64,000 nucleotides of DNA. It comes from Candidatus Poribacteria bacterium (GTDB taxonomy: Bacteria; Poribacteria; WGA-4E; WGA-3G). The stretch spans positions 186,001-250,000 of the forward strand of contig JAPPFM010000059.1 in assembly GCA_028821605.1 (NCBI GenBank). Reading direction: 5' to 3'. Below the pieces are notes generated by a model, which was given only the letters and a program-made list of their open reading frames with translations, was not told where the DNA came from and did not search any database. The stretch's first letter is position 1, and each line of letters opens with the position of its first letter. Made by a program: the position numbers and the translations under genes. Shown in pieces: positions 1,671 to 6,621 of the stretch.

Positions 1671-3323
1671 ATGCATAAAAGAATGAAACCACTTTTTTCT
1701 TATAATTTTAGCGACGGTATAGTCTCAAATCGCTTGATATTTTCCCTAATTTTTTCTTTTTTCTTTTTTGCCGTGTTTACCCCTATCGTAACGCCAGAAG
1801 AAACGGAAGAAAAAACGACGGTTGACATAAGCAGTAAAAAGATAGCAGATGTTGATCCTAACACACCAGGGGACCAAAGTGGTTGGGCCATGACGTTCAA
1901 GATCGTCTCAGGGCCGGATCCTGGTCCAAACTTTATTAATGATATTTTTATAGAAAATACTCCGGTGACAGAGCATCCTCTTTTCAAGAGCTTTGGGAAG
2001 ACGAGTGATGATCCTATCATCTATACACTCATCGTATATGATGAAACCCCTCCGTCTGATGAGAGTTCAACGGGCAATTCCGCCACGCCGCCAAGTCAAC
2101 CGGAACCCAAAACCCCCTCAGCAACTTCTACTGAACCTTCTACCGAGCAGGCACCCAAGGTGTCCACGCCTGATGAGAGTTCAACGAGTAAGACACCAGC
2201 ACAGCAGGCTGCTCCTCAAAGTTCAACACGGAATACACCAGCACAGCAGGCTGCCGCTCAAAGTTCAACGGGGAATACACAAGGAACGCCGCGTTCGGAC
2301 ACCACTAACACACCTGCCGATACGACACGAACACCGACACCTGATACACCTCAGCAACAAGCATCTAATTTGGTTGTTGAAGCACTTAAAGTAAACAAAG
2401 ATGTTTTGGATGCAGGTGAATCTTTTACAATTTCTGCAGTTGTCAAAAATCAGGGCGAAGGATCGTCGGAAACCACAGGAACGCTAACATACTATCAATA
2501 CTTTGATGATAAGTCCGTAGAAAAGGTGGGTGAATCTGAGATTGCCTTACTTGCTGCTGGCGAAACAACCGATGTCGGTATTACACTGACAGCACCAGAA
2601 ACGTCTGGATCACATTCTTATTATGCATGTGTTAGCACGAACTGCGCATCTATCGTCAAGATTTCTGTCAGATCAGAAATAAAAGAATTGGTAATTTCTT
2701 CTGGAGATAATCAGACGGGAACCCCTAACAACGATTTGCCTAACCCTATTTCTGTACAGGTATTAGATGAGGATGGCGTAGGTGTTCCACGTGTTCTCGT
2801 TATTTTCCGAGTTGTGTCTGGCACAGCTCACATGAGGCGAGCAGGGGGCCCTAAAAGATGGCGCGGTACGTCTGCGTGGACAGATAGTGAGGGGTATGCG
2901 AAAGCGTATGTCACGCCAGCAGACACGGAAACAATAAAGATTCGAGCAAGTGTTGATGGTTTAGACCCAGTCGTCTTTACGGTTAATCCTGAACAGGTGG
3001 GCAGTGCTCCTTCAGCACAGTTGCAATCTCATATAACCGCTTTGTTGGCGAACTACCCAAACCCCTTTAACCCAGAGACGTGGATTCCTTATAGGTTAGC
3101 GAAAGCGTCAGAAGTTGTTGTGGTAATCTTTGCTTCAAATGGGCAAGTCATTCGTCGGCTACACCTCGGTCATCAACCCGCTGACATCTACCAAAGTCGT
3201 AGCCGTGCTGCCCACTGGGACGGCAAGAATGAATACGGTGAACCCGTCGCAAGCGGTGTCTATTTTTATACGTTTACAGCCGGCGATTTCATTGCAACGA
3301 GAAAAATGTTGATAATGAAATAG
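1671..3323 (+). CDS. Secreted CARDB/Ig-like protein with T9SS-type C-terminal domain
   Basis: A 550-residue exported protein. A hydrophobic segment at residues 22-40 acts as signal peptide or anchor. Residues about 125-225 are a Ser/Thr/Pro/Gln-rich linker with near-repeats (PAQQAA, SSTGNT). A CARDB-like adhesion domain spans about 230-335, followed by a Big-1/Ig-like domain (about 338-443). The final 95 residues carry NYPNPFNPETWIPYRL and end with GVYFYTFTAGDFIATRKMLI, the pattern of a FlgD-Ig/T9SS type A sorting domain. GGAGA precedes the ATG. The product is probably displayed at the cell surface; its ligand is unknown. No secretion-machine gene is in the window. Confidence 0.85.
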   Translation: MHKRMKPLFSYNFSDGIVSNRLIFSLIFSFFFFAVFTPIVTPEETEEKTTVDISSKKIADVDPNTPGDQSGWAMTFKIVSGPDPGPNFINDIFIENTPVTEHPLFKSFGKTSDDPIIYTLIVYDETPPSDESSTGNSATPPSQPEPKTPSATSTEPSTEQAPKVSTPDESSTSKTPAQQAAPQSSTRNTPAQQAAAQSSTGNTQGTPRSDTTNTPADTTRTPTPDTPQQQASNLVVEALKVNKDVLDAGESFTISAVVKNQGEGSSETTGTLTYYQYFDDKSVEKVGESEIALLAAGETTDVGITLTAPETSGSHSYYACVSTNCASIVKISVRSEIKELVISSGDNQTGTPNNDLPNPISVQVLDEDGVGVPRVLVIFRVVSGTAHMRRAGGPKRWRGTSAWTDSEGYAKAYVTPADTETIKIRASVDGLDPVVFTVNPEQVGSAPSAQLQSHITALLANYPNPFNPETWIPYRLAKASEVVVVIFASNGQVIRRLHLGHQPADIYQSRSRAAHWDGKNEYGEPVASGVYFYTFTAGDFIATRKMLIMK

Positions 3324-3391
3324 GCAAAGGTGATTGCGGTTGTCAGGTTGGGATCGTATCCGTTGGAAAAGTGCGAGAGATATGGGATGCT

Positions 3392-3961
3392 TTACTCCGA
3401 TAGCAATCGAGCGACAAGATAGCAGTTTGGTGTTTTTTTCGTAGCACCGAGTTCCTTACTAAGATCCTGACACACTCTCCAGTAACGCGTGTAATTGAGC
3501 GGACGGAATTGGCGACGTTTCCCAATAAAGGTTTTGTGGCAACAGGCTAACTCATTGCTGTTTTGAATTGGGTATCCCCAGACGCGACAGATAACCGGGC
3601 GGTGTTCATAAACAGAGCAAACGCCGCCGATGAGCATAGGACATTCACCTTCCGGTGTGCCTTTTACCACTTCAATCGCTTTCATACCAGCATCCGGCAT
3701 TATGTTTTCAACATTGTAGCCGTGCGCTTTTAATTTTCTGATGCTCCGTTCCGCTTTTTGGCGAATATATGTGCGGAGTTCGGCAGGAAGGGCTTCCAAC
3801 CCTACCTTCAGATCACGAGCTTCAACCTCACTTATCGCCATTGTTGAAGTATTTAGGCAGCAGGAAAAGCAGTCAGATGGGCACGGTATGCCGCCCGATT
3901 CCTCACGCAAGCGTTCAACATCGCGTTGGATTTCATCAACGAGTTCGTAATATGCTTTCAT
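3392..3961 (-). CDS. YkgJ-family cysteine-cluster protein
   Basis: 189 residues with the YkgJ (putative zinc/iron-chelating) pattern: an N-terminal CPSDCFSCCLN cluster, then CPMLIGGVCSVYEHRPVICR and a later ACCHKTF. YkgJ-family proteins are thought to hold a metal ion or iron-sulfur cluster; the biochemical role is unsettled. The gene ends convergent to the secreted protein gene and starts 8 nt after the stop of the cold-shock/Sm-like gene, so the two are probably co-transcribed. Confidence 0.8.
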   Translation of the reverse strand: MKAYYELVDEIQRDVERLREESGGIPCPSDCFSCCLNTSTMAISEVEARDLKVGLEALPAELRTYIRQKAERSIRKLKAHGYNVENIMPDAGMKAIEVVKGTPEGECPMLIGGVCSVYEHRPVICRVWGYPIQNSNELACCHKTFIGKRRQFRPLNYTRYWRVCQDLSKELGATKKTPNCYLVARLLSE

Positions 3962-3969
3962 GGCAGCAC

Positions 3970-4920
3970 CTAACCTACGGAAAAACTGTAGACAGCATGC
4001 CGAAAAATAACGACTTTCGCGCCGTTCTCTAAAATGAGCTTAATCTCATACGGACTGACCCAATCTATAGTCCCGCGAAACATTTCACCTTCACGAAGGT
4101 TAACCTGAATCGGGGTGCCATTTTTTCGGGCGTGTTGAACGGCTTCTGTATCAATCTCAGGTGCCTGCGCGTCAGGGGCAAGTTGTGTCAATTGCTGTGC
4201 CTTCACAGCGTCATCAATAGCAACAGAAGCCTGAACCCTTTCCGCATCAACATCTTTATAGCAGTATTTAACATCTGTTTTCGCGACGTGCTGTTCCTTT
4301 CCATTGCTATTGAGTGTCAGCGTAGAAAGCGTCATTTCAAGGACGGTAGCAGGGAGTTGCACCTGGTTATACAACGCAAAAAACATAGATGTTTCAAAAT
4401 TAATCTGCTTAAGAATGTAGAGGTCGCCAAAGCTGAGTTGCTTGGAAGACGGGTCTTGTCCCTCTCGTGCTTGTGCTGTGGAGTCGTCAGAATTTCTTGT
4501 TGAGGTGTGTTGAGGCTCTGCTTTAGACCTTGAAGGTGCTGTGGATGTATCGCGGTCTCGGCGATTCCGAAGGGGTCTTGATTCATCGGCTTTGTAATCA
4601 GTGTTGCTCATTCCCTCATCACTGAGAAATTGTCCCTGATTCTGACCGGGGAAGCCAGCATAACCACGTGGAATAATTGCTTTTCCCTGCCGCAGCCATC
4701 GGCGTTCTGTTGGTGTCAATAAGACTTCGACATTTTGGGCAACGAGTCCCTTCTCGCCTTCAATAATGTTGTACTTTACGCGCTGCCCGACACGGAGCTC
4801 TTCATATTCGGGCTGCTTAATCGCGGAGCTGTGTAAAAAGACATCAGCATCACTGCTATCTTGCGCGATAAATCCGAAGCCTTTATCGAAATTGTAATAC
4901 TTAATCCGTCCTGTAGGCAT
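3970..4920 (-). CDS. Cold-shock domain protein with two Sm/Hfq-like domains
   Basis: 316 residues. Residues 1-68 are a typical cold-shock domain with the RNP1-like KGFGFIAQ and RNP2-like DVFLHSSAI motifs. Residues 70-162 form a polar, disordered-looking linker rich in Arg, Ser, Asp and Gln. Residues 163-222 look like a degenerate Sm fold (FFALYNQVQLPATV...). Residues 262-316 fit an Hfq/Sm domain well: TPIQVNLREGEMFRGTIDW resembles the Hfq Sm1 strand set, and VVIFRHAVYSFS resembles the Hfq YKHAIS Sm2 motif. The cold-shock call is firm; the Sm calls rest on motif pattern only. A role in RNA binding or post-transcriptional control is inferred. AGGAG lies 7 nt before the ATG. It precedes the YkgJ gene. 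Confidence 0.8.
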   Translation of the reverse strand: MPTGRIKYYNFDKGFGFIAQDSSDADVFLHSSAIKQPEYEELRVGQRVKYNIIEGEKGLVAQNVEVLLTPTERRWLRQGKAIIPRGYAGFPGQNQGQFLSDEGMSNTDYKADESRPLRNRRDRDTSTAPSRSKAEPQHTSTRNSDDSTAQAREGQDPSSKQLSFGDLYILKQINFETSMFFALYNQVQLPATVLEMTLSTLTLNSNGKEQHVAKTDVKYCYKDVDAERVQASVAIDDAVKAQQLTQLAPDAQAPEIDTEAVQHARKNGTPIQVNLREGEMFRGTIDWVSPYEIKLILENGAKVVIFRHAVYSFSVG

Positions 4921-5331
4921 TGTACGCTCCTGTGGTCGTGTCCCTTTTCAGGCAGATGACGTTAACCATTCGCGTTCCTTTTGCATAAGGGGAGCCTGCA
5001 AGCAAGACCCCAAATCTCTCAGAACTGTTCAACTTGTCGTATCCCCGCACACTTCACTGTATCCGATTAACCGTTGGATCGCAACCTCTCATTTAAAAGC
5101 AGCAGAAAACCGTAAACTAAATAGCACTGCAGAATGTAAGGTTTTTCTTGACACAATACCCTAACTCTTTTATAATAGAACAAATCTCATCTTGCTTTAC
5201 AGCAAACACCGCCCTATAAGACCGAAAAGAGGGCAAATTGCCAAGACACTATATATTAAATCATAATCCAACACATTTGTCAAGTACGAGACTATAGACA
5301 CACCGGTTTCAGTTTTAAAGGAGACTTTAGT
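4921..5331. promoter_or_regulatory. Divergent intergenic region with consensus promoter
   Basis: The gap between the cold-shock gene (minus) and the amidohydrolase gene (plus) contains a full-consensus sigma-70 promoter on the plus strand: TTGACA at 5148-5153, 17-nt spacer, TATAAT at 5171-5176. The amidohydrolase would have a leader of about 150 nt, with AAAGGAGA before ATG 5332. I could not identify a clear minus-strand promoter or a known riboswitch. Confidence 0.7.
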
Positions 5332-6621
5332 ATGGCAACCACCGATTTGACACATCACATCCAATCCATCCGCCTTGTTGATACACACGAACACATGAGG
5401 CGCGAAGCCGAATGGGTGGAAAATGGTCCCGATATCCTCCAAGATCTGTTCGGAAACTATGTTCCAGCCGACCTTGTAACAGCCGGTGCCTCCCCAAAAG
5501 CGATGGAAAACCTAATGGATGCATCCCAAGACATCGCATCACGGTTTGAAGGTATCCGAGACGCGTGGGAAGCGACACAGTTTACTGGATATGGCGAAGC
5601 AGTCAACCTCATCGCGAAACACATCTATGGACTCGACGAACTAACAAGCGATGGACTTGCGGGTGCCGATAACCTAAAGACGCTTCGCAGTCCCGGCAAA
5701 CGCTATCACATTTTACACGACATCGCGAATCTTGACCATATTCAAACGGATGACTTCAGTTGGCAGTGCACACCAGACACATCCGGTCCCGATTTTTTCC
5801 TCTACGATCTTTCGTGGGCAACATTCTGTAACGGACAGGTTGATCCCAGTGCTATTCACGCCGAAACAGGCGTTGAAGTCAACGACCTCGCTTCCCTTAA
5901 ACAAGGCATGGAGGCGATCTTTGCCAAGCATGCCCCGTGTGCTATCGCCGTAAAATCGCAGCATGCTTACAACCGTACGCTCGATTGGATCGAAAGGAGC
6001 GATGCTGAGGCTTCTGCTGCACTTAACGCTGTTCTCACAAAACTCGCTTCAGATATTGACGAAGCAACACGACTCTGTCTCGGCGATTGGTGCTGGGCGA
6101 GAGGTGTTGAACTCACGATTGAACACAACCTCCCCTTTAAAATTCACACCGGTTATTATGCTGGCAACGACCGAATGCCGGTGCGGCGTATCCCTGCTGG
6201 CAATATGTGTGCGCTGTTCGCTCGTTATCTTGACGCGAAGTTTGTTCTGATGCACATCGCCTACCCTTACAACGATGAATTGGTTGCGCTCGCCAAGCAC
6301 TATCGCAATATTTGGGTTGACTTTTGCTGGGCGTGGAGCATTGATCCCTACAGTTCGCGTGATTTCCTCCGACGATGTATTCATGCGGTGCCCTCAAATA
6401 AGCTGTTCGCCTTCGGTGGCGATACGGGGTGGCCCACCAGCGCAATGGCGTATGCGATCCAAGCTCGAAACGAAATCCGACGCGCCCTTGAGGCTGAAAT
6501 TGCAGACGGCTACCTCACGGAAAAACAGGCAATGGCGTTTGCAACTCGGATTATGAATACGAATCAATACGACTGCTTTGACATAAGCGGCACCCGCTCG
6601 AGCATTGCAAAAGCAGCGTAA
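5332..6621 (+). CDS. Amidohydrolase-superfamily protein
   Basis: 429 residues with the layout of an amidohydrolase-2/uronate-isomerase-like TIM barrel. The metal ligands expected of the fold are visible: HxH in VDTHEHM near the N terminus, a lysine in AIAVKSQHAY, His in FKIHTGYYAGN, His in FVLMHIAYPYNDE, and a closing Asp in FAFGGDTGWP. The substrate cannot be read from sequence; hydrolysis, isomerisation or decarboxylation of a small carboxylate or sugar acid are all possible. It ends one base before the convergent mtnA stop, and its strong promoter suggests solid expression. Confidence 0.8.
   Translation: MATTDLTHHIQSIRLVDTHEHMRREAEWVENGPDILQDLFGNYVPADLVTAGASPKAMENLMDASQDIASRFEGIRDAWEATQFTGYGEAVNLIAKHIYGLDELTSDGLAGADNLKTLRSPGKRYHILHDIANLDHIQTDDFSWQCTPDTSGPDFFLYDLSWATFCNGQVDPSAIHAETGVEVNDLASLKQGMEAIFAKHAPCAIAVKSQHAYNRTLDWIERSDAEASAALNAVLTKLASDIDEATRLCLGDWCWARGVELTIEHNLPFKIHTGYYAGNDRMPVRRIPAGNMCALFARYLDAKFVLMHIAYPYNDELVALAKHYRNIWVDFCWAWSIDPYSSRDFLRRCIHAVPSNKLFAFGGDTGWPTSAMAYAIQARNEIRRALEAEIADGYLTEKQAMAFATRIMNTNQYDCFDISGTRSSIAKAA

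Follow-up and report, generated by a model that had tools for sequence, protein, structure and literature searches.

A single chain encoded in the window (the whole stretch of 64,000 nucleotides that was analysed) was shown by computation to join a canonical cold-shock domain (CSD), a conserved motif, a linker that evolves fast and two Hfq-type Sm folds. In bacteria, Csp and Hfq are textbook RNA chaperones and are separate proteins. The CSD-Sm-Sm protein is real and conserved, and a CSD paired with two Hfq-like domains was not found described. In the open-licence literature, no publication on a fusion of CSD and Hfq came up, and the single Hfq paper that names Poribacteria is about the membrane protein FlgV, which was formerly termed an Hfq homolog. 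The gene and its parts are as follows.

3970..4920 (-), coding sequence, with its stop codon, of the 316-aa CSD-Sm-Sm protein; conserved across 62 related loci
4927..4931 (-), ribosome-binding site AGGAG, 6 nt ahead of the ATG, read directly in the sequence
4723..4920 (-), cold-shock domain, residues 1-66 (Pfam CSD 1.8e-19; CspA in the PDB 5.5e-13)
4660..4722 (-), conserved post-CSD motif LLTPTERRWLRQGKAIIPRGY, residues 67-87 (invariant alignment columns; dN = 0)
4438..4659 (-), variable polar linker, residues 88-161 (dN/dS 0.8-1.1 over residues 91-160)
4255..4437 (-), Sm1, the first Hfq-like Sm fold, residues 162-222 (AlphaFold2; Foldseek; hhalign to a stand-alone Hfq-like protein 2.8e-8)
4153..4254 (-), helical connector between both Sm folds, residues 223-256 (AlphaFold2 secondary structure)
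3973..4152 (-), Sm2, the second Hfq-like Sm fold with an FRHA motif, residues 257-316 (Pfam Hfq_1 8.3e-6; MJ1435; E. coli Hfq)

The open reading frame lies on the minus strand and starts with ATG exactly at the positions that an earlier note on this DNA had given for it, and the gene proposed there was borne out by the 316 codons and the AGGAG site in front of them. The reading frame of the tandem Sm part is unbroken in 62 relatives. A chance ORF was ruled out by this conservation together with low dN/dS, and the succession of one CSD and two Sm folds is more than a chance observation, the frame being kept in the relatives under strong purifying selection. In comparisons with two close relatives, dN/dS was 0 in the CSD and 0 in the stretch that follows it, 0.08-0.09 in Sm1 and 0.09-0.26 in Sm2, and a near-neutral 0.8-1.1 in the linker, which is the pattern to be expected of folded domains with a spacer between them. 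An Rfam search of positions 3200-5500 of the window gave no match, so no known 5'-UTR element was seen there.

The canonical cold-shock domain that the same note had read in the N-terminal part was confirmed. It matched Pfam CSD (PF00313) over residues 3-65 with 69.8 bits against a cut-off of 27 and contains both RNP1 (KGFGFI) and RNP2 (VFLHSSAI); by fold, RNP motifs and Pfam cut-off it belongs to PF00313. In this respect it is like CspA, CspD and CspE, which have the same canonical CSD with RNP1 and RNP2. Unlike them, however, the Poribacteria protein adds the post-CSD motif, the linker and the tandem Sm part, and with 316 aa and two more domains it departs from the free-standing CspA-type size of about 65-75 aa. 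The Csp equivalog models of NCBIfam scored the CSD far below their cut-offs, CspD being the best and CspE-type models coming next. The note had further described a disordered linker of 90 residues. A linker is present and presumably disordered over residues 88-161, and both its length and its sequence differ among relatives, but its variable part is about 70 residues long, because the first approximately 20 residues after the CSD form the strictly conserved motif LLTPTERRWLRQGKAIIPRGY. The 21 residues of this motif match no known family, and their conservation beside a varying linker suggests that they are possibly a docking peptide.

Of the two Sm segments, the second had been taken as near-Hfq and the first as the weaker one, and both readings held. 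In hmmscan against Pfam, Sm2 matched Hfq_1 (8.3e-6, 26.3 bits) and Hfq (2.6e-4, 21 bits), each with a cut-off of 27, and it passed Hfq_1 in the genome search with 29.4 bits; it is thus borderline. TIGR02383 (Hfq) gave 21.9 bits on the 316-aa protein against a cut-off of 61.7. The family profile of Sm2 found the Hfq-like protein MJ1435 in the PDB (E about 4e-6) and matched E. coli Hfq with an E of 1.4e-5. Sm1 had no match among the Pfam and NCBIfam models. The sole match of its profile to PDB sequences was S. aureus Hfq, suggestive only with an E of 0.31, and the direct profile comparisons were weak both with E. coli Hfq (E 0.13) and, in hhalign, with Sm2 (probability 8.7). Intermediate sequences and the fold are what support a homology of Sm1 and Hfq. 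For example, the Sm1 profile matched a stand-alone Hfq-like protein of 96 aa (L194:4155-4442 (-)) from G084, a genome that belongs to the same phylum but to none of the families of the class, with an hhalign probability of 95 and an E of 2.8e-8; this protein is over the Pfam cut-offs for both Hfq_1 and Hfq. Furthermore, it matched (E 1e-6) a 195-aa protein of G041 from the same class (L186:3119-3703 (-)), in which a CSD and a linker precede a single Hfq-like domain whose motif is QKHA; this may be an intermediate on the way to the CSD-Sm-Sm form. These two matches suggest that an Hfq-like domain joined the CSD first and that the second Sm fold was gained afterwards.

AlphaFold2 modelled the tandem module from a 45-row alignment with a pLDDT of 93.5 and a pTM of 0.89, showing the Sm topology of a helix and five strands in each half, and Foldseek found Hfq with this model at 1.9e-4. 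When Sm1 was modelled in isolation (pLDDT 88.8), all of the best 50 Foldseek matches in the PDB were Hfq (best E 5.8e-5), with a TM of 0.76 on the query and about 0.75-0.94 on the targets, and the superposition on Hfq was about 0.9 A over 61 residues (aligned columns). The isolated prediction and the fold search ruled out some other fold for Sm1. Both segments named as Sm-like therefore stand as Sm folds by their AlphaFold2 topology and their structural matches to Hfq, and by helix and five strands both halves belong with Hfq. Like Hfq (PF17209, TIGR02383), PF21979, the cyanobacterial NF047718 and the archaeal MJ1435, they have the Hfq-type Sm fold; the YKHA motif of Hfq has its counterpart in the FRHA of Sm2, and the conserved glycines are common to both. 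The protein differs from the Hfq families in having two divergent Sm folds in one chain together with a CSD, in the loss of the Tyr25 and Gln8 equivalents, and in its scores, Sm2 being just under and Sm1 far under the family cut-offs. NCBIfam NF010691 (176 positions), which we take to be a double-Hfq model, gave the protein 15.2 bits against a cut-off of 270, over positions 28-76 of the 176. Two Sm domains in one chain occur in the Zymomonas mobilis Hfq ZMO0347, a tandem Hfq of the Sphingomonadales, where nucleotide-binding pockets were described for both Sm-like domains and a hexamer of three chains was raised as a question (PMC2877685). The CSD-Sm-Sm protein likewise has two Sm domains per chain and poses the same question about a three-chain hexamer, whereas ZMO0347 has no CSD and two described pockets in place of the CSD and the degenerate Sm1 seen here.

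The distribution was determined by a scan of 84,980 species, one genome per species, with a peptide pattern that favours close relatives, and all of the 62 confirmed loci came from Candidatus Poribacteria or uncultured Poribacteria. The carriers are sponge-associated Poribacteria, in which the gene is conserved. The tandem Sm module was present in 79 of the 85 genomes of the phylum and in all 56 high-quality ones. The full CSD-Sm-Sm architecture recurred in related genomes as the note had envisaged, namely in 56/59 genomes of the window's family (f1) and 69/83 of the class. Three f1 genomes lack it, and in one of them (G001) there is a fragment at a contig edge. A stand-alone hfq was sought in the same genomes, and none was found in the class, where Hfq matches lay in frames of at least 158 aa except for one of 84 aa. 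The latter was rejected as a free-standing hfq, as it holds a stop and overlaps a dehydrogenase-like gene. All other CSD matches in f1 were in frames of at least 199 aa, apart from one 80-aa frame at a contig edge, and ordinary Csps of 65-110 aa are present in families f2, f4 and part of f3. Among the draft f1 genomes neither an intact free-standing Csp gene nor an intact free-standing Hfq gene turned up, so that the CSD-Sm-Sm gene is the sole housekeeping-type candidate for Csp or Hfq there, with the caution that draft genomes can miss small genes. Since the Hfq-like domains are fused in a larger chain, a search for a stand-alone hfq would report Poribacteria as lacking one. The viral contigs and phages searched contained no relative, and one Macrococcoides plasmid gave a weak match; a viral or plasmid origin was rejected.

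We lean towards the view that this protein is a Poribacteria-specific RNA chaperone which, in the window's family, takes the place of free-standing Csp and Hfq proteins alike. That it is an RNA chaperone at all is plausible, and the earlier idea that such a chain brings along the partners to which it binds is only one possible interpretation. The residues of the RNA site were mapped on E. coli Hfq by an alignment of 45 sequences. Sm2 retained the equivalents of G29 and G34 in 45/45 sequences, of H57 in 43/45 and of R16 in 42/45, with Phe at Y55 in 45/45, Tyr at F42 in 40/45 and Arg at K56 in 39/45. It has the YKHA-type motif in the form of FRHA and a plausible proximal-type pocket, and it may bind RNA there; Sm1 has neither motif nor pocket. 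Sm1 keeps the K56 equivalent in 43/45 and little else of the RNA site, though two lysines of its own around a YCY stretch, K218 and K222, are invariant. In Sm2, Tyr25 is replaced (Thr in 34/45) and so is Gln8 (Asp in 38/45), which makes A-rich distal binding doubtful. By alignment, then, Sm1 appears degenerate as an RNA site and the distal site of Sm2 appears changed.

We infer the oligomeric state, the RNA targets with their specificity and the role of the protein, and the following course is proposed. The two Sm domains would assemble into a ring, most simply from three chains that form a pseudo-hexamer of six positions, alternately Sm1 and Sm2. Sm2 would supply a U-binding pocket like the proximal one of Hfq (Tyr291, Phe306, Arg307, His308) together with basic rim residues, and Sm1 would be mainly structural or would bind a different ligand. 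The CSDs, as arms on flexible linkers, could bind and melt single-stranded RNA and pass it to the ring. With U-rich RNA held at the Sm2 positions, the protein may anneal or remodel RNA, and its likely role would be in post-transcriptional control or RNA remodelling under stress. One conserved gene that apparently merges and replaces Csp and Hfq would be a natural test of their cooperation on the same RNA, and equally of the way in which asymmetric bacterial Sm rings encoded in tandem function. The chaperone-ring proposal is weakened because the distal residues are lost, Sm1 keeps little of the RNA site, the tandem part is acidic and the Hfq models stay below their cut-offs. Furthermore, the helical connector could hinder a closed ring.

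Some of these points would equally suit a cold-shock protein whose tandem Sm part only oligomerises or docks proteins, giving avidity to the CSDs and no RNA binding of the Hfq type. Sm folds can act as protein-protein modules, Sm1 is without most RNA-site residues, Sm2 is without Tyr25 and Gln8, and the tandem part has a net charge of -5. However, the pocket residues of Sm2 are among the best-kept positions of the module, beyond what a mere scaffold needs. In addition, several families of tandem Sm proteins of about 200-350 aa have no CSD, indicating that the Sm part is useful without one. We regard a purely structural Sm part as unlikely.

The strictly conserved LLTPTERRWLRQGKAIIPRGY motif (dN = 0), which adjoins a linker that is free to vary, could also belong to a transcription-linked RNA-binding factor, such as an antiterminator or a nascent-RNA chaperone, in which the CSD would act as in antitermination of the CspA/CspE type and the motif would dock on RNA polymerase or another partner. 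The CspE-type NCBIfam models do rank after CspD for the CSD, far below their cut-off as they are. But no sequence match of the motif to known polymerase-binding elements was found, and the neighbour genes are not transcription genes; we consider a function in transcription very unlikely. One of these neighbours is the following gene.

3392..3961 (-), downstream gene of the CxxCxxCC (YkgJ) type (Pfam PF03692 5.1e-5)

It begins 8 nt past the core stop codon on the same strand. Of the 62 related loci, 51 have a homolog of it, which in nearly all cases begins no more than about 120 nt from the core gene. This closeness in most loci makes an operon likely, and the two genes probably share one. A divergent amidohydrolase gene was kept in 40/62 loci.

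To return to the CSD-Sm-Sm protein, related tandem Sm modules are not restricted to it. The more distant ones are found in large proteins, at the C-terminus or close to it. For example, two proteins of 1208 and 1244 aa have N-termini like SACS/TmtA ATPases and a tandem Sm at the end (L131:6080-9703 (-) and L132:3027-6758 (+)). Five others begin with a GmrSD-type part that is followed by the tandem Sm and a CSD-like end: L134:413-3247 (+), L135:4224-6887 (-) and L136:2713-6093 (+), where the CSD was matched by Pfam, and L183:3889-6621 (-) and L184:4237-6954 (-), where it was recognised by eye and each has a CSD match in the genome search. These proteins combine the same two RNA-binding folds as the core protein in reversed order. 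The tandem Sm was also found on a UvrD helicase with S1 domains (L133:3045-7076 (+)), on a triple-S1 protein with a Pfam CSD (L138:44-1342 (+)) and on an RNase H-like protein (L137:5376-6464 (-)). Besides the core gene, the window's genome encodes two further Hfq-domain proteins. An 826-aa frame of this genome (L057:3949-6426 (+), G000:C12) joins a GmrSD (DUF262-type) nuclease to a C-terminal Hfq domain above the Pfam Hfq cut-off and counts among the GmrSD nucleases that bear a distant tandem module; no paper on Hfq fused to DUF262 was found in the open-licence literature. In the same genome, L056:5785-6639 (+) (G000:C53) stands, together with related proteins of the genus, for a group of accessory proteins (about 170-320 aa) whose Sm1 is degenerate and whose Hfq domain exceeds the Pfam cut-off; some of them have, in addition, an N-terminal part that no Pfam model matched. 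The accessory module was absent from the plasmids and phages searched, and many genomes have the core gene with no accessory module detected. In the tree, a branch with 100/100 support splits the core family, with and without CSD, from the effector-type modules, and 15 of the 16 CSD members cluster with 98/99 support.

These fusions could be arranged in a two-tier Sm system, in which a housekeeping CSD-Sm-Sm ring would serve as Csp and Hfq, and defence-type effectors (GmrSD nucleases, SACS ATPases, UvrD helicase) would carry matching tandem Sm tails, often with their own CSD, for RNA sensing or docking. We consider such a system quite unlikely. If true, the Sm module would be a modular RNA-recognition tag, which to our knowledge is not described in bacterial immunity. 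That restriction and ATPase effectors bear modules of this sort suggests how RNA recognition might lead to defence. That the core protein itself belongs to a defence-related RNA-sensing network, its tandem Sm co-assembling or sharing RNA ligands with the GmrSD, SACS-type and UvrD tails, is highly improbable. In its favour, GmrSD, SACS/TmtA-like and UvrD proteins carry tandem Sm modules, in several cases together with a CSD, and a GmrSD-Hfq protein occurs in the window's own genome. Against it, the core and accessory modules fall on either side of the fully supported branch, their Sm1 sequences are divergent, and the core gene so often occurs where no accessory module was detected.

The sole other CSD in the window's genome lies at the N-terminus of a protein of 906 aa that also contains a RAMP domain (L182:4081-6798 (+), G000:C58) and is reminiscent of the 'CSD domain-containing protein Cmr6' of PDB 9arw.
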